The translations under genes were made by a program, and so were the position numbers. Under the pieces are notes generated by a model. The model saw only the letters and a list, made by a program, of their open reading frames with translations. It made no database searches and was not told the origin of the DNA. This document shows, piece by piece, positions 35,232 through 59,236 of a stretch of DNA of 64,000 bases. Source of the DNA: Bacillus niameyensis. GTDB lineage: Bacteria; Bacillota; Bacilli; Bacillales; Bacillaceae_C. How positions within the stretch are numbered: the first letter of the stretch is position 1; each line of letters opens with the position of its first letter. The DNA lies in contig NZ_LN831197.1 in assembly GCF_001375535.1 (NCBI RefSeq), positions 62,001 to 126,000 of the forward strand, written 5' to 3'.

Positions 35232-35497
35232 TGATTGACGCTTAAGTATTTACTACTTTGAACAGAAAATGATTAATCTTTAGTTATTTTTTTGCAGTAG
35301 TATTTAATCCTGTGATTAAAGGATAAACTTGTAATTAAAGACAAGCTGATAGAAACAAGTACATTCTCGGAATTTCAAGGTGTAAATTGGCCGAACTTCC
35401 AAATGCCGTTGGTTCCTTTTTTCACGAACAAGGACATGATAAAGCCTCTCATGTCCCTTATGTGCCGTTTTATTCCCTGAATGGGACACGATTCAAT

Positions 35498-35965
35498 GAC
35501 AATCGTTACCGTTTCACAGCAGTTCCACTCATTACGGGCACCATCCAGCGTCAATCGTTACCGTTTCACAGTAGTTCCACTCATTACGGGCACGATTCAC
35601 CGTCAATCGTTACCCTTTCATAGAAGATCAACTCATTACGGGCACGATCCATCGTCAATCGTTACCGTTTCACAGGAGATCAGCACATTACGGGCACGAT
35701 TCAATGTCAATCGTTACCATTTCACAGTAGTTCCACTCATTGCGGGCACGATCCACCGTCAATCGTTACCGTTTCACAGCAGATCAGTTCATTACGGGCA
35801 TGATTCATCGTCAATCGTTCCCGTTTCACAGTAGATCACCTCATTGCGGGCACGATTCACCGTCAATCGTTACCGTTTCACAGCAGATCACCTCATTGCG
35901 GGCACGATTCAGTGTCAATGGTTCCCGTTTCACAGGAGATCAGCACATTGCGGGCACGATTCATG
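35498..35965. repeat. Tandem array of nine 52-bp units
   Basis: Nine consecutive 52-bp units, each reading GTCAATCGTTACCGTTTCAC then a variable decamer (AGYAGWTCMN type) then CTCATTACGGGCACGATTCA. Most copies differ at a few positions and no two neighbours are identical. The 52-bp period is not a multiple of three, so the overlapping open frames across the array are a by-product and not genes. A 17-bp sequence CATGATAAAGCCTCTCA flanks the array on both sides (35435-35451 and 35962-35978). The gap of 780 bases between the DUF72 and TetR genes holds nothing else that I can support. Confidence 0.92.
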
Positions 35966-36011
35966 ATAAAGCCTCTCAAAGTCCGTGGGCATCCTCTGTT
36001 CTATCTCAATA

Positions 36012-36599
36012 CTACTCTTCATTTTTTCCAGCTATTCCAAAAAAGAAAAGTTTTGTTAGATCTTCTGTTATGGGGAGAATGTTTTTGGTCACATCCCCAC
36101 GTTGCAAAAATTCTTTAAACATTTGAATATATAACAAAATCGCTTCATTCGAAATACTTGGGTCTACAAATCCTTGTTCTTTGCCTTCGTTAAATAACTT
36201 CATAAACCGCGGTAATGCTTTCTCCATATATAATTTATCAATATAATTATCCTCACCAGAATATTCCTTCATAAAGTACTCAAAAAATTCTTCGTTAATG
36301 TGACTAGCTACCTCTGATTTATCAAAAATGATCTTTTTCACTTTTGTTGGAAATGGAATGTTGCTATTAAATAGCTGCTCATATTCCCCCCAGATTTTGT
36401 CAACGTAAAAAATAATCACTTCATGAACTAAGTTATCTTTATTTTCAAAGTAATTATAAATTGTAACCTGTGATACTTGTGCTTCTTTAGCTATTTCAGA
36501 AACGGATACTTTCCGGATGTTGTACTTCATAAATAACGTAAGCGCTGTCTCTAAAATTTTCCTCTTTTTTTGCTCTTTCCGTCTTTCAAACCCGTTCAC
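36012..36599 (-). CDS. TetR-family transcriptional regulator
   Basis: A 195-aa regulator on the - strand, divergent from an ABC export operon. The N-terminal helix-turn-helix reads ILETALTLFMKYNIRKVSVS then EIAKEAQVSQVTIYNYFENK, the classic TetR DNA-binding domain; the rest is an all-helical ligand domain. The divergent arrangement and two palindromes in the shared intergenic region suggest that it represses itself and the ABC operon until an inducer binds. Confidence 0.92.
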   Translation of the reverse strand: MNGFERRKEQKKRKILETALTLFMKYNIRKVSVSEIAKEAQVSQVTIYNYFENKDNLVHEVIIFYVDKIWGEYEQLFNSNIPFPTKVKKIIFDKSEVASHINEEFFEYFMKEYSGEDNYIDKLYMEKALPRFMKLFNEGKEQGFVDPSISNEAILLYIQMFKEFLQRGDVTKNILPITEDLTKLFFFGIAGKNEE

Positions 36600-36651
36600 A
36601 ACAGTTCACCTCCATCATAGTGTAATAAAAGTTTTGTAATAAAACAACAAT

Positions 36652-36728
36652 AATAGTTCATAAACTATTGCTGATTGACTAACTTTTGTATATTATGAAC
36701 TATATGGGCTTATAAAGTTCATAACTTT
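36652..36728. promoter_or_regulatory. Two palindromic operator candidates between tetR-like and ABC genes
   Basis: AATAGTTCATAAACTATT (36652-36669) and AAAGTTCATAACTTT (36714-36728) are near-perfect palindromes sharing the core AGTTCAT. They flank a TATTAT-like -10 region and a further TATGAACTAT half-site, consistent with TetR-dimer binding across both divergent promoters. Confidence 0.6.
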
Positions 36729-36762
36729 GATAATAAGTTCTTTAGTAGGGGGAGCGAAAAAC

Positions 36763-37656
36763 ATGTCTGTATTAAAAACTACGAATCTAACAAAAAAGTT
36801 TGGTAAGTTTACCGCACTTGATGGTATTAACATTGAACTAATGAAGGGGGAAGTTTTTGGATTTATTGGTCCGAATGGCGCAGGAAAGTCGACGACCATT
36901 CGTGTTTTGCTTGGAATCTTAAAGGCAACTACTGGTGAAGCAAAAATTTTTGGGAAGGATGCATGGATAGATGCTGTTGAAATTCACAAAAGGATTGCTT
37001 ATGTGCCAGGAGATGTAAATTTATGGCCTAACTTAACAGGTGGAGAGGTTATAGATTTATTTGTCAAACTTCGTGGTGGAAATCATAAAAGTCGTAGAGA
37101 AGAACTAATTAAGAAATTCGACTTAGATACAAGTAAAAAGTGTAGGACTTACTCAAAAGGAAACAGACAAAAGGTTGCATTAGTTGCTGCTTTTTCGTCA
37201 GAGGCAGACCTTTATATATTAGATGAGCCTACTTCAGGACTGGATCCTTTAATGGAACAAGTATTCCAAGAGTGTGTTCTAGAAGCAAAAAACGCTGGGA
37301 AGACAGTTTTACTTTCAAGTCATATTCTATCGGAAGTAGAAAAATTATGTGACCGGGTTGGGATTATTCGGCAGGGAAAAATAATAGAAACAGGAAGCTT
37401 AAGCGAATTACGGCACTTAACTCGAACAAACTTGATAGTTAAAACAAAACGTCCGATAACAGCTCTACATGAATTTAGAGGTGTACATGAAGTGGTAGAG
37501 AATGATGCAGGCCTTTCCTTTCAGGTTGATTCAGAGGAATTAGACTTGATTATTAAGCACATAGGTCAATTCGGCATTCTCAAATTGGAGAGTAGCCCTC
37601 CTACATTAGAGGATTTGTTCATGCGCCATTATGAAAATAAAGGAGGTGTATCCTAA
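36763..37656 (+). CDS. ABC-2 exporter ATPase (drug/antibiotic export type)
   Basis: A 297-aa ATPase starting at ATG 36763 with GGGGGAG upstream. Walker A GPNGAGKST, signature YSKGNRQK (in place of LSGGQ, as is common in DrrA-type ATPases), Walker B LYILDEPTSGLDP and H-loop SSHILSE. It overlaps the permease start by one base (TAATG). With the divergent TetR gene this matches the layout of substrate-inducible antibiotic export loci. Confidence 0.92.
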   Translation: MSVLKTTNLTKKFGKFTALDGINIELMKGEVFGFIGPNGAGKSTTIRVLLGILKATTGEAKIFGKDAWIDAVEIHKRIAYVPGDVNLWPNLTGGEVIDLFVKLRGGNHKSRREELIKKFDLDTSKKCRTYSKGNRQKVALVAAFSSEADLYILDEPTSGLDPLMEQVFQECVLEAKNAGKTVLLSSHILSEVEKLCDRVGIIRQGKIIETGSLSELRHLTRTNLIVKTKRPITALHEFRGVHEVVENDAGLSFQVDSEELDLIIKHIGQFGILKLESSPPTLEDLFMRHYENKGGVS

Positions 37657-39257
37657 TGGTTCGCTCCATCTTTATAAATACAGGGTCTTTATCCAAATTG
37701 ATTGTAAGACGTGATCGTATTCGGATCGCTTTATGGATAATAGGCATTTCTTTTTTTACAATCATCGTTCCAGTTACCTTTGCGGATATGTATCCTGATC
37801 AACAGGAAAGAGATTTGATGGCAGAAACGATGAAAAATCCTGCAATGACAGCAATGGTGGGACATGGAGATTTGGATCAGTACACTATTGGTGCAATGAC
37901 CGCACACCAAATGTTATTACTAACAGCTGTTGTTGTTGGGTTAATGAATATTTTACTTGTAACTCGTCATACAAGAGCAGATGAAGAAGAAGGGCGTATT
38001 GAACTAATACGTTCACTTCCGACCGGACGCCTTTCTAATATAAATGCAACATTTGTTGTTCTAGTTTTAGTTAATGTCATCTTGGGGCTAATTACAGGTA
38101 TCGGGCTATATGTATTAGGTATTGAAAGTATGAATCTAGAGGGTTCTTTGCTTTATGGAACAGCTTTAAGTGTAACTGGAATTTTCTTTGCTAGTGTGAC
38201 AGGAGTATTTGCTCAGCTTTCAGAAAGTTCTCGTGGTGTGATTGGCTATTCAATCGCTTTTTTACTTATTGCTTATCTTGTTCGTGCAATTGGTGATGTA
38301 AGTAATGAAATAATGTCTTGGATTTCACCCTTAGGCTGGGTGACACAAACAGATGTTTATTCAAATAATAACTGGCTGCCAATGGTGTTCATGATCACAC
38401 TGTCTATTTTCCTGTTTATATTAGCCAATTATTTAAACGCCATACGAGATTTGGAAGCAGCATTTTTTTCGGCAAGACCAGGAAAGCAACAAGCCTCTGC
38501 ATATTTACAAAGTCCTGTTGGCTTGGCCTTTAGGCTGCAACGCACAGGAACGATCGCATGGGCAATCGGAATGCTTGTAATGGGGCTTTCTTACGGTTCT
38601 GTTTTTGGTGATTTAGAATCTTTCTTCGAAGGCAATGAGATGTTGGAACAAATGTTAGCCGTAAAAGAAGGATATACGCTCACCGAACAATTCATTCCAA
38701 TGTTAATGATGGTGATCGCTATTCTTTCAGCCATTCCTCCATTAATGTCTATTTTAAAGCTTACTGTGGAGGAGAGAAAAAATCGGATTGAACATATGTT
38801 AAGTAGAGTTGTTTCTAGATATAAGTTAATGGGGAGTTACTTAGTACTCTCTGTCCTGAATGGATTTATTATGATTTCACTTGCTGCGATCGGACTTTGG
38901 ACGGCAGGAACAGCTGTAATGGAGAATGGTTTTTCGTTCGGAACAATATATGGGGCAGCTCTAGTCTATTATCCAGCAACCCTCGTGATGATTGGGATCG
39001 CTGTGTTATTCATTGGATTTTATCCAAAATTAACGAATCTCATATGGATATATGTCTTTTATTCTTTCTTTGTTCTTTATTTAGGAGGGTTATTTCAATT
39101 CCCCGATTGGGTCGGAAAACTTACACCATTTGGTTATATTCCGCAACTTCCTATTGAAGAAATGAACTGGTTGTCAGTACTATCCCTAATTGCGATATCC
39201 ATATTCTTTATAATTATTGGATTTATAGGTTACAAAAGACGAGATATAGAAGGATAA
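37656..39257 (+). CDS. ABC-2 type permease, polyketide-antibiotic exporter family
   Basis: A 533-aa permease with about 12 membrane segments in two halves, twice the size of a usual ABC-2 subunit, as in the family annotated as exporter of polyketide antibiotics. It begins MVRSIFINTGSLSKLIVRRD and has the block RHTRADEEEGRIELIRSLP, typical of that family, after the second helix. It is coupled to the ATPase gene. Probable role: efflux of hydrophobic toxic compounds under TetR control; the natural ligand is unknown. Confidence 0.88.
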   Translation: MVRSIFINTGSLSKLIVRRDRIRIALWIIGISFFTIIVPVTFADMYPDQQERDLMAETMKNPAMTAMVGHGDLDQYTIGAMTAHQMLLLTAVVVGLMNILLVTRHTRADEEEGRIELIRSLPTGRLSNINATFVVLVLVNVILGLITGIGLYVLGIESMNLEGSLLYGTALSVTGIFFASVTGVFAQLSESSRGVIGYSIAFLLIAYLVRAIGDVSNEIMSWISPLGWVTQTDVYSNNNWLPMVFMITLSIFLFILANYLNAIRDLEAAFFSARPGKQQASAYLQSPVGLAFRLQRTGTIAWAIGMLVMGLSYGSVFGDLESFFEGNEMLEQMLAVKEGYTLTEQFIPMLMMVIAILSAIPPLMSILKLTVEERKNRIEHMLSRVVSRYKLMGSYLVLSVLNGFIMISLAAIGLWTAGTAVMENGFSFGTIYGAALVYYPATLVMIGIAVLFIGFYPKLTNLIWIYVFYSFFVLYLGGLFQFPDWVGKLTPFGYIPQLPIEEMNWLSVLSLIAISIFFIIIGFIGYKRRDIEG

Positions 39258-39897: not shown

Positions 39898-40047
39898 TCC
39901 CGCATTAACTGGCTGTAAGACCCCCACTTCAAGAATTCGAGGAGAATCCAAGAATTGTAAGTGGGGATCAACAGCCAGTAAAAGCCCGATTGGTTCAACT
40001 AACAATCAGTGGGGGATGGAAAAAACCCCCACTGATTGAAGTTTCAC
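39898..40047. mobile_element. TTTA-flanked palindromic non-autonomous element, copy 3 (150 bp)
   Basis: Same ends and hairpins as copies 1 and 2, short form, flanked by TTTA at 39894-39897 and 40048-40051. It sits between the glycine-rich gene and the six-gene biosynthetic operon, about 125 bp upstream of the KAS III start, so it may lie in the promoter region of that operon. No gene is visibly broken here. Confidence 0.85.
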
Positions 40048-40174
40048 TTTATAGTGGGTCTCTTTAATTTTAAGGGCGATATAGGTACAATTACATATTT
40101 TGCTATATTACTATATTTTCTTATGCCTGTCCTTTGATATACTCAGAAAAAGCCTATGTGGAAGGGAATTTAAT

Positions 40175-41170
40175 ATGAAAAGAAAGTTAAAGATTGTTGG
40201 AGTTGGAACATATTTACCATCGAAAATAGTCACGTCTAGTGAGATTGATCAATTTCTTCAATTGAAACCAGGATGGACTTATAAAAAATCTGGCGTTCAA
40301 TCGCGTTTTTATGTAGATGGAGAAACAGCTTCTCAGATGGGGGCGAAAGCGGCAGTTAAGGCTATTCAAGATGCTAATCTTGACCTGACTGATATTGATT
40401 GTATCATTGCGGGAAGTGGGACAATGGAACAACCTATACCTTGTAATGCTGCCCTTATTCAGCGGGAACTAAATCTCGGTGAATCCGGCATCCCATGCTT
40501 TGATATAAATACAACTTGTTTAAGCTTTGTGCAGGCACTAGATGTAGCATCTTTATATATTGAAACAGGGGTATATGAGACGATTCTTATTGTTTCTTCG
40601 GAGATCGCCTCTGTAGGAATTAACTGGAAGGAAAAGGAGAGCAGTGTGCTATTTGGTGATGGAGCAGCAGCAGTAGTTGTACAGAAAACACCAGAAGGGG
40701 AAGACTCGGGAATTTACACGATTCGCATGGAAACTTATAGTGAGGGTGCTTCTTACACTGAGATTCGTGGTGGGGGTACTAAAAAACATCCAAGAGAGCA
40801 TCGTCTGGAAACAGAAGCTGACTTTTTATTTCATATGAATGGTCCAGCTGTTTTTCGCATGTCATCAAAACTTTTGCCAGACTTTGTTGAAAAAATATTT
40901 GCTGCGAGTAATCTAAAGATGGCTGATTTGCAGGCAGTCGTCCCTCATCAAGCAAGTGGAATGGCGATGCGTCTTATGAAGAAAAAACTCCAAATTCCGG
41001 ATCAAATTTTTATTGATGTAATAGAGAATTATGGGAATATGATTGCCGCGTCTATTCCGCTAGCACTTCATGAAGCAATTCGAGCAAAGCGCCTTACACG
41101 TGGCGGGAAAGTGATGTTACTCGGGACTTCTGCAGGATTATCCTTGGGAGGAATGGTCCTTGAATATTGA
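40175..41170 (+). CDS. KAS III-like thiolase-fold synthase (FabH/OleA type), first gene of a biosynthetic operon
   Basis: A 331-aa condensing enzyme from ATG 40175 (GAAGGGA upstream). The triad is intact: Cys115 in DINTTCLSF, His258 in VVPHQAS and Asn288 in ENYGNMIAAS; SSVLFGDGAAAVVV is the family glycine loop. It should condense an acyl thioester with malonyl-ACP (FabH), or two acyl-CoAs head to head (OleA). It differs from housekeeping FabH by its genetic setting: it is the first of six overlapping genes, none of which belongs to fatty acid elongation. No ACP gene is nearby. The product is unknown. Confidence 0.88.
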   Translation: MKRKLKIVGVGTYLPSKIVTSSEIDQFLQLKPGWTYKKSGVQSRFYVDGETASQMGAKAAVKAIQDANLDLTDIDCIIAGSGTMEQPIPCNAALIQRELNLGESGIPCFDINTTCLSFVQALDVASLYIETGVYETILIVSSEIASVGINWKEKESSVLFGDGAAAVVVQKTPEGEDSGIYTIRMETYSEGASYTEIRGGGTKKHPREHRLETEADFLFHMNGPAVFRMSSKLLPDFVEKIFAASNLKMADLQAVVPHQASGMAMRLMKKKLQIPDQIFIDVIENYGNMIAASIPLALHEAIRAKRLTRGGKVMLLGTSAGLSLGGMVLEY

Positions 41171-42308
41171 TCATCAGAAAAAAGTTTTATTAACGGGGGG
41201 AAGAGCTCCTGTCACCTTGGAGTTAGCTAGATTATTTGCCCATGCAGGTCAAGAGGTCTATGTAGCGGACAGTTTTTCTTCCCAATTGACTAAGGCTTCA
41301 AATGGTGTAAAAGAAGCTTTTACGGTTCATAGTCCTGTTCAACACTTTACTAGCTTTATAGCTGATTTACTCAAGATCGTCCAAGAAAGACAAATCGACC
41401 TCATACTCCCGACATGTGAAGAGGTTTTTTATGTGGCGAAAGGAAAGTCAGTATTAGAAAAATATTGTAACGTTTTTTGTCCTGATTTAACTTACCTTTT
41501 GAAGCTGCATCAAAAATACGAGTTTATCAAATTAGTGGCAGAAAAAGGGCTACTAGCTCCTAGATCGGTATTTATTACGAGTAAAGAAGAGTTACCTTCT
41601 GCATGGGAAAAAATAGGCGAAGAGGCGGTTCTTAAACCTGTTTTTTCCCGTTTTGGTTCACACATTACCTTTTTTGATAAAACTTCCATTCCAAAATTAA
41701 ATTTTCCTAATGGAGAATATGTAGTTCAAAAAAAGATTAGTGGACAGCCTATTTGTAGCTACAGTGTTTTGTTGGAAGGAGAAATTGTTGCCCATACGCA
41801 ATATAAAGTGGAATTTTCAGCTGGCAACAGTGCAGCAATTCATTTTCGTCATATAGAACATTCAAAAATAGAAAATTGGATTCGTACATTTTTTGATGGT
41901 GAAAAAGTAACAGGTCAATTTGCTTTTGACTTTATTGAGACGGAGAAAGGAGAAATCTTTCCTTTGGAATGCAACCCCCGTGCGACTAGTGGGGTACATT
42001 TGTTTGCTGGACGCGCACTACCATCTTCTTTTTTAGGTGAAAAAAGGGAATTGTTAAAGCCTTCCTTGCAAACAAATCGGATGATCGCTCTAGCGATGCT
42101 AATTTATGGTTGGCGTAATAAAGGATTGTGGAAATGGCTGAAGGCCATGCATCAATCAAAAGATGTTATTTGGTCTTGGCAAGATAAGAAGCCTTTTTTT
42201 TATCAATTTTATTCTTATATAGCGATGCTGAAGTTGAGCCGCACAATTCGTAAGTCACCATTAGAGGCAACTACTTTTGATATTGAATGGAATGGTGATG
42301 ACAAGTGA
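41160..42308 (+). CDS. ATP-grasp carboxylate-amine ligase-like enzyme
   Basis: A 382-aa ATP-grasp protein. The N-terminal Rossmann-like part reads KKVLLTGGRAPVTLELARLF, the central ATP-binding part has EEAVLKPVFSRFGSHITFF (Lys and P-x-x-x-x-x-S-x-G-loop) and ECNPRATSGVHLFAG holds the metal-binding Glu/Asn of the family. Such enzymes join a carboxylate to an amine or another nucleophile through an acyl phosphate. TTG 41160 overlaps the end of the KAS III-like gene by 11 bases, and its stop overlaps the next gene by 4, so translation is coupled. Confidence 0.85.
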   Translation: MNIDHQKKVLLTGGRAPVTLELARLFAHAGQEVYVADSFSSQLTKASNGVKEAFTVHSPVQHFTSFIADLLKIVQERQIDLILPTCEEVFYVAKGKSVLEKYCNVFCPDLTYLLKLHQKYEFIKLVAEKGLLAPRSVFITSKEELPSAWEKIGEEAVLKPVFSRFGSHITFFDKTSIPKLNFPNGEYVVQKKISGQPICSYSVLLEGEIVAHTQYKVEFSAGNSAAIHFRHIEHSKIENWIRTFFDGEKVTGQFAFDFIETEKGEIFPLECNPRATSGVHLFAGRALPSSFLGEKRELLKPSLQTNRMIALAMLIYGWRNKGLWKWLKAMHQSKDVIWSWQDKKPFFYQFYSYIAMLKLSRTIRKSPLEATTFDIEWNGDDK

Positions 42309-43303
42309 AGATGTTTGTTACTGGTGGAACTGGATTTTTAGGTAAGGCACTAGCGAGAAGGTTTCTGCAATTAGGGCATGATGTTACAGTGCTTGGTAGA
42401 AATAAAGAGATTGGCAGTAAACTTGAAAGGGAAGGCATCCGCTTTGTTGCAGGAGATTTAGAAGATGCCAAGTTAATGGAAGAACTAATTGAAAATCAAG
42501 ATTATGTATTTCATTGTGGTGCTCTCTCTTCTCCTTGGGGAAAGTTTCAACGGTTTTATCAGGCGAATGTAATTGGAACGAAAAATGTTATTGCTGGATG
42601 TGAGCGGCATCAAGTTCGAAGATTGATTCATGTATCAACACCAAGTTTGTATTTTTATCATAATAATCGCTTGGATGTAAAAGAAGGAGACAGCCTTCCA
42701 CAAAAGTTTATCAATCATTATGCGCATACAAAATATTTGGCGGAAATCGAAATTGATCGTGCCTTTTCCAGAGGGCTTCCTGTGATAACTATTCGACCAA
42801 GGGCCATCTTTGGTCCTGAAGATACAACTATTATCCCTCGCTTAATTGAGGTAAACAAGAAGCGGTTTATTCCGCTTGTCGATGGTGGCCGTGCAAGAAT
42901 AGATTTAACTTATGTGGAAAATGTTGTGGATGCACTTTTATTATGTATGGAATCACCTGAACATACAATTGGGAAAAAATATAATATTACGAACGGTGAA
43001 AATGTCGTTTTTCGTGATGTACTGCAACAGTTATTTACTTATATGGACGCCCCGATGAAAACGAAAGAAATCTCTTTTAAGAAAGCGATGAAATTAGCTG
43101 GGCTTTTCGAATGGGTATCTACTTATCTTTTACTTGGAAAAGAACCATTATTAACGAAATATACAGTTAGTGTTCTAGGTAATAGTCAAACATTGGATAT
43201 TGAGGCAGCAAAATGTGATTTGGGCTACACCCCCAAAGTAGGTATAGAAGAAGGGATAGCTACATTTGTTGAATGGTGGAAGAAAAATGATGAAGAAAAC
43301 TGA
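42305..43303 (+). CDS. NAD(P)-dependent short-chain (extended SDR) dehydrogenase, 3-beta-HSD/OleD-like
   Basis: A 332-aa extended SDR. The Rossmann loop is MFVTGGTGFLGKAL; the catalytic tyrosine and lysine are in NHYAHTKYLAEIE (YxxxK); the nucleotide-adjacent region is RPRAIFGPED. The family includes 3-beta-hydroxysteroid dehydrogenases and the beta-ketoacid reductase OleD. GTG 42305 overlaps the preceding stop. In this operon it would reduce or epimerise the product of the KAS III-like enzyme. Confidence 0.87.
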   Translation: MKMFVTGGTGFLGKALARRFLQLGHDVTVLGRNKEIGSKLEREGIRFVAGDLEDAKLMEELIENQDYVFHCGALSSPWGKFQRFYQANVIGTKNVIAGCERHQVRRLIHVSTPSLYFYHNNRLDVKEGDSLPQKFINHYAHTKYLAEIEIDRAFSRGLPVITIRPRAIFGPEDTTIIPRLIEVNKKRFIPLVDGGRARIDLTYVENVVDALLLCMESPEHTIGKKYNITNGENVVFRDVLQQLFTYMDAPMKTKEISFKKAMKLAGLFEWVSTYLLLGKEPLLTKYTVSVLGNSQTLDIEAAKCDLGYTPKVGIEEGIATFVEWWKKNDEEN

Positions 43304-44129
43304 TCTATCTCTAACTCTTTTTCAAACAGGTTATTGTGTACATCCGGAAAAAGTGACTGTTAAAGATGGCAGTTGGAAAAAGGTGAAATTTCCAGCTCTT
43401 GTTGGTTTAATTGAACACCCTGAAAAAGGTTATATATTATTTGATACTGGATATGCTGAACATTTCTTTGCTGCGAGCAGGAAGTTTCCTTATTCAATTT
43501 ACCCAAAAGTGACTCCAGTTTATTTTGAAGATGAACAAAGTATTAAAAATCAACTTAGTGCAAAAGGAATTTATCCAGAGGATATTAGTTACATAATTAT
43601 TTCACATTTTCACGGAGATCATATTGGGGGATTGCTAGATTTCCCTAAATCAACATATATATGTTTCAAACGGGCCTATCAATTTATTAAAGATAAAAAA
43701 GGCTTTTCTGCAATCAAAAATGGCTATTTACCTGATTTGCTGCCTAAAGATTTTCTGGAGCGTGTTATTTTTTTAGAGGAGGGGGATGGTTCACAGTTAT
43801 CAGATGATTTTTCACCCTTTACAGAGGGATGGGATATTTTTCAGGACGGTTCGTTATTCGCCGTTGATTTAACAGGTCATGCAATTGGTCAAATGGGAAT
43901 TTTTCTACACGATTCTAAAATGGATTGCGTCTTCTTATGTGCAGATGCGTGTTGGCAAAGTAGAGCCTATAGGGAGAAGGTTTTTCCAAATCCGTTAGCT
44001 TATTTAATTATGCCAGATGTTAGATCCTATCAAGAAAACCTTATACGGCTTCATCAATTGCATGAACATCACCCGAAGTGGAAGATTCTTCCGACCCATT
44101 GTCAAGAGATTTGGAGGAATGATCAATGA
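43287..44129 (+). CDS. Metallo-beta-lactamase-fold hydrolase
   Basis: A 280-aa MBL-fold enzyme. The signature SHFHGDHIGG (HxHxDH) gives four metal ligands; further ligands are His in DLTGHAIGQ, Asp in LCADACWQ and His in LPTHCQEIW. It is related to N-acyl-homoserine-lactonase/glyoxalase II-type hydrolases, which act on lactones, esters and thioesters. The start is ATG 43287 or 43290 (adjacent Met codons, MMKK) inside the end of the SDR gene. In the operon it may release or open a thioester or lactone intermediate. Confidence 0.87.
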   Translation: MMKKTDLSLTLFQTGYCVHPEKVTVKDGSWKKVKFPALVGLIEHPEKGYILFDTGYAEHFFAASRKFPYSIYPKVTPVYFEDEQSIKNQLSAKGIYPEDISYIIISHFHGDHIGGLLDFPKSTYICFKRAYQFIKDKKGFSAIKNGYLPDLLPKDFLERVIFLEEGDGSQLSDDFSPFTEGWDIFQDGSLFAVDLTGHAIGQMGIFLHDSKMDCVFLCADACWQSRAYREKVFPNPLAYLIMPDVRSYQENLIRLHQLHEHHPKWKILPTHCQEIWRNDQ

Positions 44130-45427
44130 GTGTGCTCTCGATTGTAAAAGAATATATAATCCAAAAGCATTTTCGCCACTTTAAAACAAGGGAGCAGTTA
44201 AAAAAGTATCAAGAAAAAATGATGAAAAAACATCTACAATTCGTTCTACAGCATTCCGTTTTTTACCGTGATTATTATGGAACGGATAATGTTGCTGAAA
44301 TAGCAGATTGGCGGAAACTTCCGACAATCGATAAGACTTTAATGATGGACCAATTTAGTCAATTAAATACTGTTGGACTGGATAAGGATCAGGCTTTCTC
44401 TGTTGCAATGAAGGCCGAAGAAAAACGAGATTTTTCTCCAACTATTAAAGGAATAACGATTGGATTATCTTCTGGAACATCAGGTAATCGTGGATTATTT
44501 ATCGTATCTCCAGAAGAAAGAGAACGGTGGGCAGGGGTCATCTTAGCAAAGTTATTACCTGGAAGTATTTTGGAAAAACAGCGGATTGCCTTCTTTCTGC
44601 GTGCTAATAGTAATTTGTACACGACAACTCAGTCTAAACGAATCGAGTTTACCTTTTATGATTTATTGGATTCATTTCACGACCATGTTCTGCGATTGAA
44701 TGATTTTCAACCGTCCATTTTAGTTGCTCCACCTTCTGTACTTCGTTTTTTAGCAAAAGCTTCCTTAGAAGGCAGACTAAAATGTTCACCCCAAAAAATC
44801 ATATCAGTTGCCGAGGTTCTAGATCCTCTCGATGAGAAATTTATTGGAGAGGTCTTTAAACAAAAAGTTCATCAAGTTTATCAATGTACGGAAGGATTTT
44901 TAGGTTGTACATGTGAACATGGTACAATCCATCTTAATGAAGATCTGCTTATTGTTGAGCGGGAGTACATAGGTGATAGGCAATTTATGCCAATAATTAG
45001 TGATTTTTCCCGAAAAAGTCAACCAATTATCCGTTATCGGTTAAATGATATTTTAACTGAAAAACAAGAACCTTGCCCATGCGGTTCTCCAGCCCTTGCC
45101 CTTGAAAAGATCGAAGGACGAAGCGATGATATTTTTTATTTTTATAAGGGAGAAGAGAAAATTCCATTATTCCCAGATTTCATTCGCCGTGCGGTTATTA
45201 CTGCTTCAGAGGAAATAGAGGAATATCGGGTAATTCAAAGTGCTATCGACGTTATTGAATTACAAATTAAATGGAAAGAGAAAAAGGAAGAAGAAAGATT
45301 AAGAGATTCTTTCAAGGATGTTTTTCAAAAATTTGGAGTAAAAGTTCCCTACATCGAATTTAAAGATTATGATTTTCGACCTGGAGTTCAAAAACTTAGA
45401 AGGGTAGAAAGAAGGTTCAGATGTTGA
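44126..45427 (+). CDS. CoF-synthetase/PaaK-like adenylate-forming enzyme (F390 synthetase-related)
   Basis: A 433-aa ANL-superfamily enzyme of the PaaK/CapK/F390-synthetase branch. ATP-binding motif TIGLSSGTSGNRGL; cysteine clusters QCTEGFLGCTCEHGT and PCPCGSPAL, typical for the zinc-binding PaaK-like group; hinge motif GRSDDIFYF. It should activate a carboxylate as the acyl-adenylate, with transfer to CoA or another acceptor. It overlaps both neighbours by 4-7 bases. Together with the ATP-grasp enzyme it gives this operon two separate carboxylate-activating steps. Confidence 0.85.
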   Translation: MSVLSIVKEYIIQKHFRHFKTREQLKKYQEKMMKKHLQFVLQHSVFYRDYYGTDNVAEIADWRKLPTIDKTLMMDQFSQLNTVGLDKDQAFSVAMKAEEKRDFSPTIKGITIGLSSGTSGNRGLFIVSPEERERWAGVILAKLLPGSILEKQRIAFFLRANSNLYTTTQSKRIEFTFYDLLDSFHDHVLRLNDFQPSILVAPPSVLRFLAKASLEGRLKCSPQKIISVAEVLDPLDEKFIGEVFKQKVHQVYQCTEGFLGCTCEHGTIHLNEDLLIVEREYIGDRQFMPIISDFSRKSQPIIRYRLNDILTEKQEPCPCGSPALALEKIEGRSDDIFYFYKGEEKIPLFPDFIRRAVITASEEIEEYRVIQSAIDVIELQIKWKEKKEEERLRDSFKDVFQKFGVKVPYIEFKDYDFRPGVQKLRRVERRFRC

Positions 45428-46563
45428 TCGAACTTTTCAGCAAAAAAGAGCTTGAGAAGATTAATTGGCATGATTTTCGAAATGGGGAAGAAGTAAAGGG
45501 CTATTTTTCCGAAATGATGAAAGTGGAACCAAAAGTGTATGTGAAAAATGTCGACGCAGAAATTTACCTTTTGGCTGTAGATGATTTATTAATTCCTATA
45601 ACAAAGGCGATCAATAATGAAAAAAATAGTTACGTAGTCTCGCCTTTTGTCCATTACGTCAGCTATGCGATTGAAGAATTACGAGAACTGCAAAATCCGC
45701 TGTTGGAATGGTTTTTGAAAAGATTTCTGCAATGTTTTGGTTTCTTAATGAAATGGGGAAAAGTTGATCGTGTCGTTACTGTTAACAATTGGTTATTGTC
45801 AACAAATCTATATGAGGAACTAACGACAGAGCAAGCTGGGAGAATTGTGAAATTCGTCCAGAAACAGTTTCCTCACGATGCTATTCTTTTCCGCTCATTA
45901 ACAGAACCGCTCCATCAATCAATTATGGAAGCTTTTGCTGATCAAGGTTGTGTTTATGTTCCTAGCCGTTCCATTTATTTGTTTTATCCTGATCAATATG
46001 ATCAATTCTCGAAGAAACAAAGAAAAACGATTCGCCGTGATCAGCAGTTTATGGCGAAGAGCGGTTATATTATTGAGGATAAAATAAGCTCTACTGATAT
46101 GCAAAGAGTGCTGGATTTATATAACGAGTTATATTTAAAAAAATATTCATACTTTAATCCTCAATTTACAATCGAGTTTTTACAAAATGCTTACGAGAAC
46201 AAACTGATTCATTTTAGAGTATTAAAAAAAGAGAATCAGATTGATGGGGTTGTTGGCTTCATTGTACGAAATGGAAAGATAACGACTCCAATCCTTGGTT
46301 ATGATACTTCCAAGCCTAAAAAAGTCGGACTTTATCGATTGTGTTCGTTGATCCTGACAATGTCATCCCTTAAAACAGGTATTTTATTTCATCGTAGTGC
46401 AGGAGCAGGGGAATTTAAGAAAAATCGTGGTTCCCAAAATGAGATCGAATACTCCGCCGTTTTCACGGATCATTTACCATGGAGTCGAAGGTGGATTTGG
46501 AGAGCTTTAGAATTCCTGCTTACGAAAATAGGTGTGCCCTTATTGAAGAAGTTCAATTTATGA
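45421..46563 (+). CDS. GNAT/FemAB-like acyltransferase, last gene of the biosynthetic operon
   Basis: A 380-aa protein whose C-terminal half has FemAB/GNAT-style features: SKKQRKTIRRDQQFMAKSGY (the K-x-R-x-x-R-R block seen in BioF2/FemAB-like acyltransferases), VLDLYNELYLKKYSYFNPQF, VVGFIVRNGKITTPILGYD and RSAGAGEFKKNRGS. The N-terminal half is poorly conserved. It starts at ATG 45421, overlapping the adenylating enzyme by 7 bases, and ends at a terminator. Proposed role: transfer of an acyl or aminoacyl group onto the pathway product; this is inference. Confidence 0.7.
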   Translation: MLIELFSKKELEKINWHDFRNGEEVKGYFSEMMKVEPKVYVKNVDAEIYLLAVDDLLIPITKAINNEKNSYVVSPFVHYVSYAIEELRELQNPLLEWFLKRFLQCFGFLMKWGKVDRVVTVNNWLLSTNLYEELTTEQAGRIVKFVQKQFPHDAILFRSLTEPLHQSIMEAFADQGCVYVPSRSIYLFYPDQYDQFSKKQRKTIRRDQQFMAKSGYIIEDKISSTDMQRVLDLYNELYLKKYSYFNPQFTIEFLQNAYENKLIHFRVLKKENQIDGVVGFIVRNGKITTPILGYDTSKPKKVGLYRLCSLILTMSSLKTGILFHRSAGAGEFKKNRGSQNEIEYSAVFTDHLPWSRRWIWRALEFLLTKIGVPLLKKFNL

Positions 46564-46608
46564 AACAGCGAAACTAGGCCATGTTGCTTACAGTTTCGCT
46601 GTTTTTTT
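46564..46608 (+). terminator. Terminator of the six-gene operon
   Basis: AACAGCGAAACT pairs with AGTTTCGCTGTT, followed by TTTTT. It begins one base after the GNAT/FemAB-like stop. Confidence 0.9.
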
Positions 46609-46727
46609 ATGAGTTGTAGTAATAGAGAAAAAGAAGAAGGACAAAGACTGTATCGTTATTTTAGTCATGATATTTGAATCGAGAGGAATAATGAGAGTAC
46701 AGCCTTTTTTGAGAAAGGAGTACTATA

Positions 46728-59080: not shown

Positions 59081-59096
59081 TACATGATTTGACCCA

Positions 59097-59236
59097 GTTC
59101 GCAGAGAAATAAACCCGTTCGGGAGGATTTAAACTCGTTCGCAGAGAAATAAACCCGTTCGGGGAAAATTAACCCCATTCGCGGAGAAATAAATCCATTC
59201 GACAGGAAAAAAATCCATCCCGGATATTTGAATCCC
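59097..59236. repeat. Tandem array of seven 20-bp units
   Basis: Seven contiguous 20-bp units with the consensus GTTCGCAGAGAAATAAACCC. Units 1 and 3 are identical; units 5-7 are increasingly diverged. They lie between a methyltransferase and an APH-like gene. The array is AT-rich with a TTCG core in six of seven units. The 20-bp length matches the decayed units near 6150-6490. Confidence 0.9.

Follow-up and report, generated by a model that had tools for sequence, protein, structure and literature searches.

What do six overlapping genes of Bacillus niameyensis make together, and are they inherited as one unit? The genes are located on the plus strand at positions 40175-46563 of a 64,000-nucleotide stretch of contig NZ_LN831197.1 (positions 62,001 to 126,000 of that contig, assembly GCF_001375535.1; the whole stretch is hereinafter the window); all six are co-oriented, each overlaps its neighbour, and one terminator closes the series. 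A sequence-only reading of this DNA had proposed a small-molecule pathway that condenses an acyl thioester, reduces it, and joins it to an amine or carboxylate by two activation steps. The six open reading frames (ORFs) are indeed present on the plus strand at the coordinates given there, and family searches with each protein matched the six domain types that had been named, the last one weakly and below the cut-off: a ketosynthase (KAS) of the beta-ketoacyl-acyl carrier protein synthase III (KAS III) type, an ATP-grasp ligase, an extended short-chain dehydrogenase/reductase (SDR), a hydrolase of the metallo-beta-lactamase (MBL) fold, an adenylate-forming enzyme related to coenzyme F390 synthetase, and a transferase of the GCN5-related N-acetyltransferase (GNAT)/FemAB type. 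Equally borne out was the statement that no gene for an acyl carrier protein (ACP), a polyketide synthase (PKS) or a nonribosomal peptide synthetase lies within the operon. In the account that we favour, and to which we give an even chance of being right, the operon makes a lipid-like molecule by head-to-head acyl condensation, reduction, hydrolysis, adenylation and amino acid attachment.

The genes make up a genuine biosynthetic cassette that has been inherited repeatedly. When 84,980 species were scanned with a profile of the adenylating enzyme, at least 587 relatives were retrieved, of which the best 80 were kept; 79 of these, 6 of 34 matching genomes (in which the remaining matches outside the genome under study reached E 1.7e-12 at best) and 7 plasmid records hand-picked for breadth from 74 yielded 92 distinct loci, L034 being left out of the counts because it comes from the same genome as L028. 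The loci were selected by the adenylating enzyme alone, and the genes for the KAS, the SDR, the MBL hydrolase and the F390-type enzyme are encoded on one strand within 9 kb in 85 of the 92; this core is incomplete in the remaining seven (L046, L063, L068, L072, L095, L100 and L113) and is present in each of 6 plasmid loci outside the set. All six genes were found in 54 loci, 48 of the 92 have the exact six-gene order, and in 70 the first five genes stand in exactly this order. Most of the loci among the best 80 of the at least 587 relatives belong to Paenibacillus, Cohnella, Brevibacillus, Saccharibacillus, Metabacillus, Ureibacillus, Lysinibacillus and Thermoactinomycetaceae; Bdellovibrionales and cyanobacteria supply outliers. 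A classical SDR is additionally encoded at the cassette in 35 of the 92 loci, downstream of the F390-type gene in 33 of these. In every one of the 15 gene pairs the distance matrices between cassettes are correlated (r 0.78-0.91; permuted maximum 0.24; none of 999 permutations per pair reached the observed value), in part through common species history. The catalytic positions are kept in nearly all copies, and therefore the cassette is under selection for function and is not debris. The earlier view of one conserved metabolic cassette, and with it the expectation that gene order would be conserved in relatives, is thus upheld; the picture of a six-gene unit has to be redrawn, given that the six-gene version recurs but the core consists of four genes and spans several phyla beyond Bacillaceae, with the ATP-grasp ligase and the transferase as frequent companions.

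The first gene (40175..41170) encodes a KAS III-type ketosynthase that belongs to NCBIfam PRK07204 (496 bits, cut-off 402) and for which the nearest solved structures are MxnB (4v2p, 278 bits) and CorB (4yuc, 267 bits), compared with 177 bits for the best FabH. The triad Cys115-His258-Asn288 is exactly as read from the sequence earlier and is invariant in 89 of the 89 aligned copies, window included (here and below, residue counts are confined to copies with a match spanning 90-115% of the window protein, and n varies by gene accordingly). The KAS of the cassettes share with MxnB and CorB an Ile/Leu/Val-Pro pair where FabH has Phe-Pro, mostly CLSF around the cysteine where FabH has C(A/S)GF, N-x-I replacing the NTS of FabH, and a GGG-containing insertion of which G200 and G201 are kept in at least 97% of the 89 copies. 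In a 42-row tree, midpoint-rooted for drawing, 26 cassette KAS, MxnB, CorB and a KAS from Priestia separate at 100/99 from a set of 13 other KAS III, namely 4 FabH, a second paralogue from the genome under study and 8 plasmid-borne KAS III of other kinds. This tree leaves unsettled whether MxnB and CorB stand beside or inside the cassette KAS, which form one group in 21% of the bootstraps; the Priestia protein falls beside MxnB/CorB here (96/92) and beside the cassette KAS in a quick tree. A 101-row tree (95 cassette KAS, MxnB, CorB and 4 FabH-type rows) gave a 100/100 split with a long-branch warning, and because only the 4 FabH-type rows lie outside, the affinity of MxnB/CorB to the cassette versus FabH is not decidable from it; the 42-row tree, with its further KAS III, lends support to the same split.

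PMC4578411 reports that MxnB and CorB have a valine in place of the glutamate on which OleA and PpyS rely, and of the OleA proteins aligned in PMC7064751 all but two have this glutamate. In the cassette KAS the residue before the invariant proline is Ile in 63 copies, Leu in 26 and Glu in none of the 89, the position of OleA Glu117 having been located through Val94 of MxnB/CorB as given in PMC4578411, without an aligned OleA sequence. MxnB unites two carrier-bound chains in vitro, as shown in PMC5724707. Taken together, the nearest structures, the tree, the signatures, the missing glutamate and the two-chain activity of MxnB make two-chain condensation the best, even if unproven, reading of this enzyme. 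The KAS III-like synthase seen earlier stands as a condenser, but one that does not have the diagnostic residue of OleA and belongs with MxnB and CorB.

The SDR (42305..43303) has OleD (2-alkyl-3-oxoalkanoate reductase, NF042422) as its top named family at 252 bits, below the cut-off of 580, and the next named family other than such reductases reaches 147 bits; for the E. coli homologue, two OleD-type models rank first and second. In this respect the comparison with OleABCD that had been drawn from the sequence is apt. The catalytic Tyr139 and Lys143 are present in all 88 copies. The MBL-fold protein (43287..44129, with the start at 43266, 43287 or 43290) matches Pfam Lactamase_B at 47.8 bits and appears lactonase-like, its best named family being AttM (98 bits, below the cut-off of 390). 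The metal site is complete, with His106, His108, Asp110, His111, His197 and Asp219 in 86 of 86 copies and His270 in 85 (residue numbers count from the start at 43290). The tyrosine of the lactonases has a catalytic role; its position is occupied by Trp in 85 of the 86 copies. The adenylate-forming enzyme of the PaaK type (44126..45427) is a clear member of TIGR02304 (547.3 bits, cut-off 251.9), an F390-synthetase-related family whose name assigns no substrate, and the coenzyme F390 synthetase model itself matches weakly (18.8 bits). SSGTSG, TEG, D308 and K423 are conserved, and SSGTSG, Asp308 and Lys423 were found in at least 97% of 91 copies. The eight families listed for this ligase do not include OleC, in a library not checked for an OleC model.

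The ATP-grasp protein (41160..42308), a carboxylate-amine ligase with a fold like those of PurK, glycinamide ribonucleotide synthetase and PylC, passes Pfam ATP-grasp_3 at 24.0 bits against a cut-off of 23.2. The last protein (45421..46563) matches FemAB_like at 20.2 bits, below the cut-off of 27, and among 40 members of its family FemAB_like is found at E 0.001 in 2 and Acetyltransf_6 in 14. Structure prediction gives this protein a tandem GNAT/FemX fold, which it shares with FemX, Sbb17 and MprF at 9-14% identity. The earlier assignment as a GNAT/FemAB-like acyltransferase is thus retained as to type and, judging by the structural model, can be refined to the fold of aminoacyl-tRNA-dependent transferases. 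A sphingolipid-like reading, with the transferase as a bacterial ceramide synthase, was considered, and a literature search gave no supporting evidence for it.

From these families the following sequence of steps can be envisaged. Like MxnB and CorB, the KAS would condense two acyl thioesters in head-to-head fashion, and the OleD-like SDR would then reduce the beta-keto group of the condensed acyl chain to a hydroxy group; the MBL hydrolase, acting as a thioesterase or a lactone hydrolase, would release the acid, which the F390-type enzyme would adenylate so that an ester, an amide or a lactone can form. Where all six genes are present, one or two amino acids would be attached by the ATP-grasp ligase and the FemX/MprF-like transferase. 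The product would be an alpha-substituted beta-hydroxy lipid, activated and aminoacylated, made by a pathway parallel to OleABCD. As in the sequence-only reading, condensation, reduction and two ATP-using activations remain the natural interpretation of the gene families; that the product is probably a lipid is suggested by the kinships of the KAS and the SDR and by the lipid-type genes that adjoin the cassette in other genomes.

Several observations weigh against this account. The substrates, the order of the steps, the product and the chemistry are all what we infer, each lipid-type neighbour gene is rare, and common species history has its share in the distance correlation. According to PMC4578411, MxnB acts on PKS-bound beta-keto chains, which is said to explain its missing glutamate; simple fatty acyls might need this residue. 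Membership in the MxnB/CorB clade, a matter of sequence kinship, is no proof of two-chain use, and the KAS tree was built from a set from which OleA, PpyS and DarB are absent. For the last protein, the resemblance to FemX and MprF is one of fold only, and mycothiol synthase and N-myristoyltransferase have that same tandem-GNAT fold. A KAS of the same clade is encoded outside any cassette on a Priestia megaterium plasmid (L124 7995-11623), where its neighbours are an ACP and an MMPL transporter, and a relative of the cassette KAS is found on plasmid p3 of Paracoccus sp. TOH (L127 6307-7975) with no other core gene annotated nearby; the latter adjoins a TetR gene and is perhaps a remnant. Conversely, no KAS was detected in the stretch examined at the cyanobacterial loci L072, L100 and L068 (the last of which ends at a contig end), which carry the MBL and F390-type genes and, in two of the three, the SDR gene as well.

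Alternative explanations start from the same enzymes. It is possible, if rather doubtful, that the KAS works in the decarboxylative manner of FabH, on acyl-CoA and malonyl-ACP, and that an ordinary linear beta-hydroxy acyl unit is released, activated anew and linked to an amino acid as an N-acyl or O-acyl conjugate; such a route would fit the complete Cys-His-Asn triad, the common superfamily with FabH, and the ACP gene next to the Priestia relative. However, the clade differs from FabH at conserved residues near the active site and shares with MxnB and CorB the insertion that FabH does not have, and the window KAS is just 32% and 26% identical to the two KAS III paralogues in its own genome. 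Even less probable appears a catabolic or signal-destroying cassette in which a lactone signal is opened by the MBL protein and the resulting acid is activated by the ligase in order to be degraded, a reading that we hold to be very unlikely: the MBL protein is nearest to N-acyl homoserine lactonases such as AttM and AiiA, but it falls below the lactonase family cut-off and does not have the lactonase tyrosine, and a condensing ketosynthase, an ATP-grasp ligase and an aminoacyl-transferase fold are biosynthetic. Quorum quenching was rejected on the same grounds, that is, 98 versus 390 bits for AttM, Trp for Tyr, and biosynthetic partner genes.

A strict equivalent of OleABCD, in which the F390-type enzyme is a beta-lactone synthetase standing in for OleC and the MBL protein a beta-lactone hydrolase/decarboxylase standing in for OleB, with a beta-lactone or an olefin as the product, also seems unlikely, albeit not to the extent of signal destruction. 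The OleABCD olefin clusters and the oleACD beta-lactone clusters (Xanthomonas; lipstatin) combine the same thiolase-fold condenser, OleD-type SDR, adenylate-forming enzyme and hydrolase, so that the roles match one for one (condense, reduce, adenylate, act on the lactone), with the SDR nearest to OleD and the MBL protein nearest to lactonases. Against this, the Glu117-Pro of OleA, as described in PMC7064751, is Ile/Leu-Pro in 89 of 89 cassette KAS. The Trp at the lactonase Tyr position and the ATP-grasp and FemX-like genes, additional to the Ole set and left unexplained by an olefin, speak in the same direction. The F390/PaaK type represents a different branch of adenylate-forming enzymes from OleC, and OleB has an alpha/beta fold, whereas the cassette hydrolase has the MBL fold and no OleB-type alpha/beta-hydrolase gene is present in the operon. 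Because three of four features of that system are lacking, namely the OleA glutamate, an SDR score above the OleD cut-off and an OleB-type hydrolase, and the fourth, an OleC synthetase, decides neither way, the cassette is best filed, on sequence grounds, under head-to-head acyl condensation as a kind and not as a member of OleABCD. Myxopyronin and corallopyronin synthesis provides the other comparison: MxnB and CorB belong to the same KAS III clade and have the same signatures but work for PKS assembly lines and produce alpha-pyrones, whereas the cassette contains neither PKS nor ACP and its condenser is followed by a reductase. A motif search (not a profile search), which recovered 2 of 2 annotated ACPs as a control, detected no carrier protein beside the cassette in the 92 loci. 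Head-to-head condensation leading to an aminoacylated lipid remains the preferred account.

The cassette moves. The TIGR02304 cut-off is passed in 4 of 16 genomes of the genus, that of B. niameyensis included, and in 6 of 299 genomes of the order. The DNA alignment of the window with the congener G012, which has the closest copy, is limited to 40082-46455, and the 5-6 kb examined on either side of the G012 copy are without a match to the window. Two versions occur within the genus, with 60-76% identity to the window in all six proteins in G012 and 30-53% in G008 and G011, and copies are plasmid-borne in Paenibacillus and Pontibacillus. Carriage by phages was rejected, with just two partial 26%-identity matches among 50,697 phage records.

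Alpha-, beta- and gammaproteobacterial loci retain KAS-SDR-MBL-F390, often with extra enzymes. In E. coli, the core is accompanied by genes for PAP2, a fatty-acid hydroxylase and a fatty-acid desaturase and forms a 6.9-kb island between narI and the tyrosine tRNA/purU region (e.g., L123 3001-9882 in strain NRG 857C). At least 80% of the island is present in 671 of 5,426 complete genomes, about one in eight, and 9 of 10 E. coli records among those listed come from humans. One 385-kb record labelled plasmid (NZ_CP141085, E. coli KE48) contains a chromosome-like stretch around the core, from the nar operon to galU and hns. The Paracoccus and Ketogulonicigenium loci have a divergent sulfotransferase gene and a TetR gene, the sulfotransferase being found in 3 plasmid loci; Rieske proteins are encoded at the Rhizobium and Roseateles loci, and over the 92 loci a Rieske oxygenase was found in 4 and an old yellow enzyme in 5. 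In Rhizobium and Paraburkholderia, ATP-grasp and GNAT genes are also present, in a different order. In Fusobacterium vincentii (NZ_CP084075), the order is SDR-MBL-F390-KAS, near a weakly HpnI-like glycosyltransferase; this 2.1-Mb record, labelled plasmid, is probably a mislabelled chromosome.

Within the window, the operon is preceded by an immediate leader with the ribosome-binding site of the first gene (40129..40174, GGAAGGGAA upstream of the ATG at 40175). The further start codons are TTG 41160, GTG 42305, ATG 43287 or 43290, ATG 44126 and ATG 45421, which give overlaps of 11, 4, 17 (or 14), 4 and 7 bases, within the 4-17 bases originally reported; however, the MBL frame opens at TTG 43266, where a purine-rich stretch is located upstream as well, and from this start the overlap would be 38. 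The single terminator that had been recognized at the end of the operon is an intrinsic one at about 46565..46608, seen in both sequence and fold: a long stem is followed by seven T, and the 97-base stretch 46564-46660 folds at -21.6 kcal/mol (z -1.87). A simple terminator scan did not pick it up. Directly upstream of the cassette, at 39900-40053, there is a palindromic repeat of about 154 bases with 51 matches in the genome, of which 10, this copy included, extend over nearly the full length at 95% identity or more; it resembles a dispersed element of the miniature inverted-repeat transposable element or repetitive extragenic palindromic type.

Neither flank appears to belong to the system. 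The upstream ABC transporter and TetR genes (36012-39257) were considered as export and control functions and rejected because their distribution does not follow that of the cassette: a full-length permease homologue is encoded in 13 of the 16 genomes of the genus, own included, with a 40-residue piece in a 14th, versus the cassette in 4 of 16, and at E 1e-10 the loci L021-L113 gave distant ATPase matches in 5 (25-30% identity) and none for TetR or the permease. The downstream Fpg gene was likewise rejected as a member, because 13 of the 15 congeners encode a homologue at 63-70% identity, in one case a partial one. Beside the TetR gene, at 35487-35963, a 52-base unit is repeated 9.2 times in tandem (85% matches), and the ORF at 35740-36126 that overlaps it is probably spurious. 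Another short tandem array, with periods of 40 and 20 bases, is located at 59086-59201.

Each enzyme of the cassette belongs to a known superfamily. No description of the cassette or of a product made by it was found in the open-access literature among the matches listed, the E. coli island having been sought by text and not by locus tags, which does not show that the combination is unpublished. A bolder and quite tentative proposal, one that we consider more apt to be wrong than right, is that the cassette represents a third independent pathway of head-to-head condensation, beside Ole and alpha-pyrone formation, which would make alpha-alkyl-beta-hydroxy (mycolate-like) acids aminoacylated by tRNA- and ATP-grasp-dependent steps, across several phyla and with its core in about an eighth of the complete E. 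coli genomes. If true, this would amount to a chemically undescribed class of lipids or signals distributed over several phyla. The intact enzymes, the conserved order and the patchy spread over Bacillota, Pseudomonadota including E. coli, Fusobacteriota and Bdellovibrionota suggest that the product is likely useful to its hosts. The cassette could give TIGR02304, a curated family, a biochemical role, and could tell whether enzymes of the MxnB/CorB type serve lipid pathways outside polyketide assembly lines.

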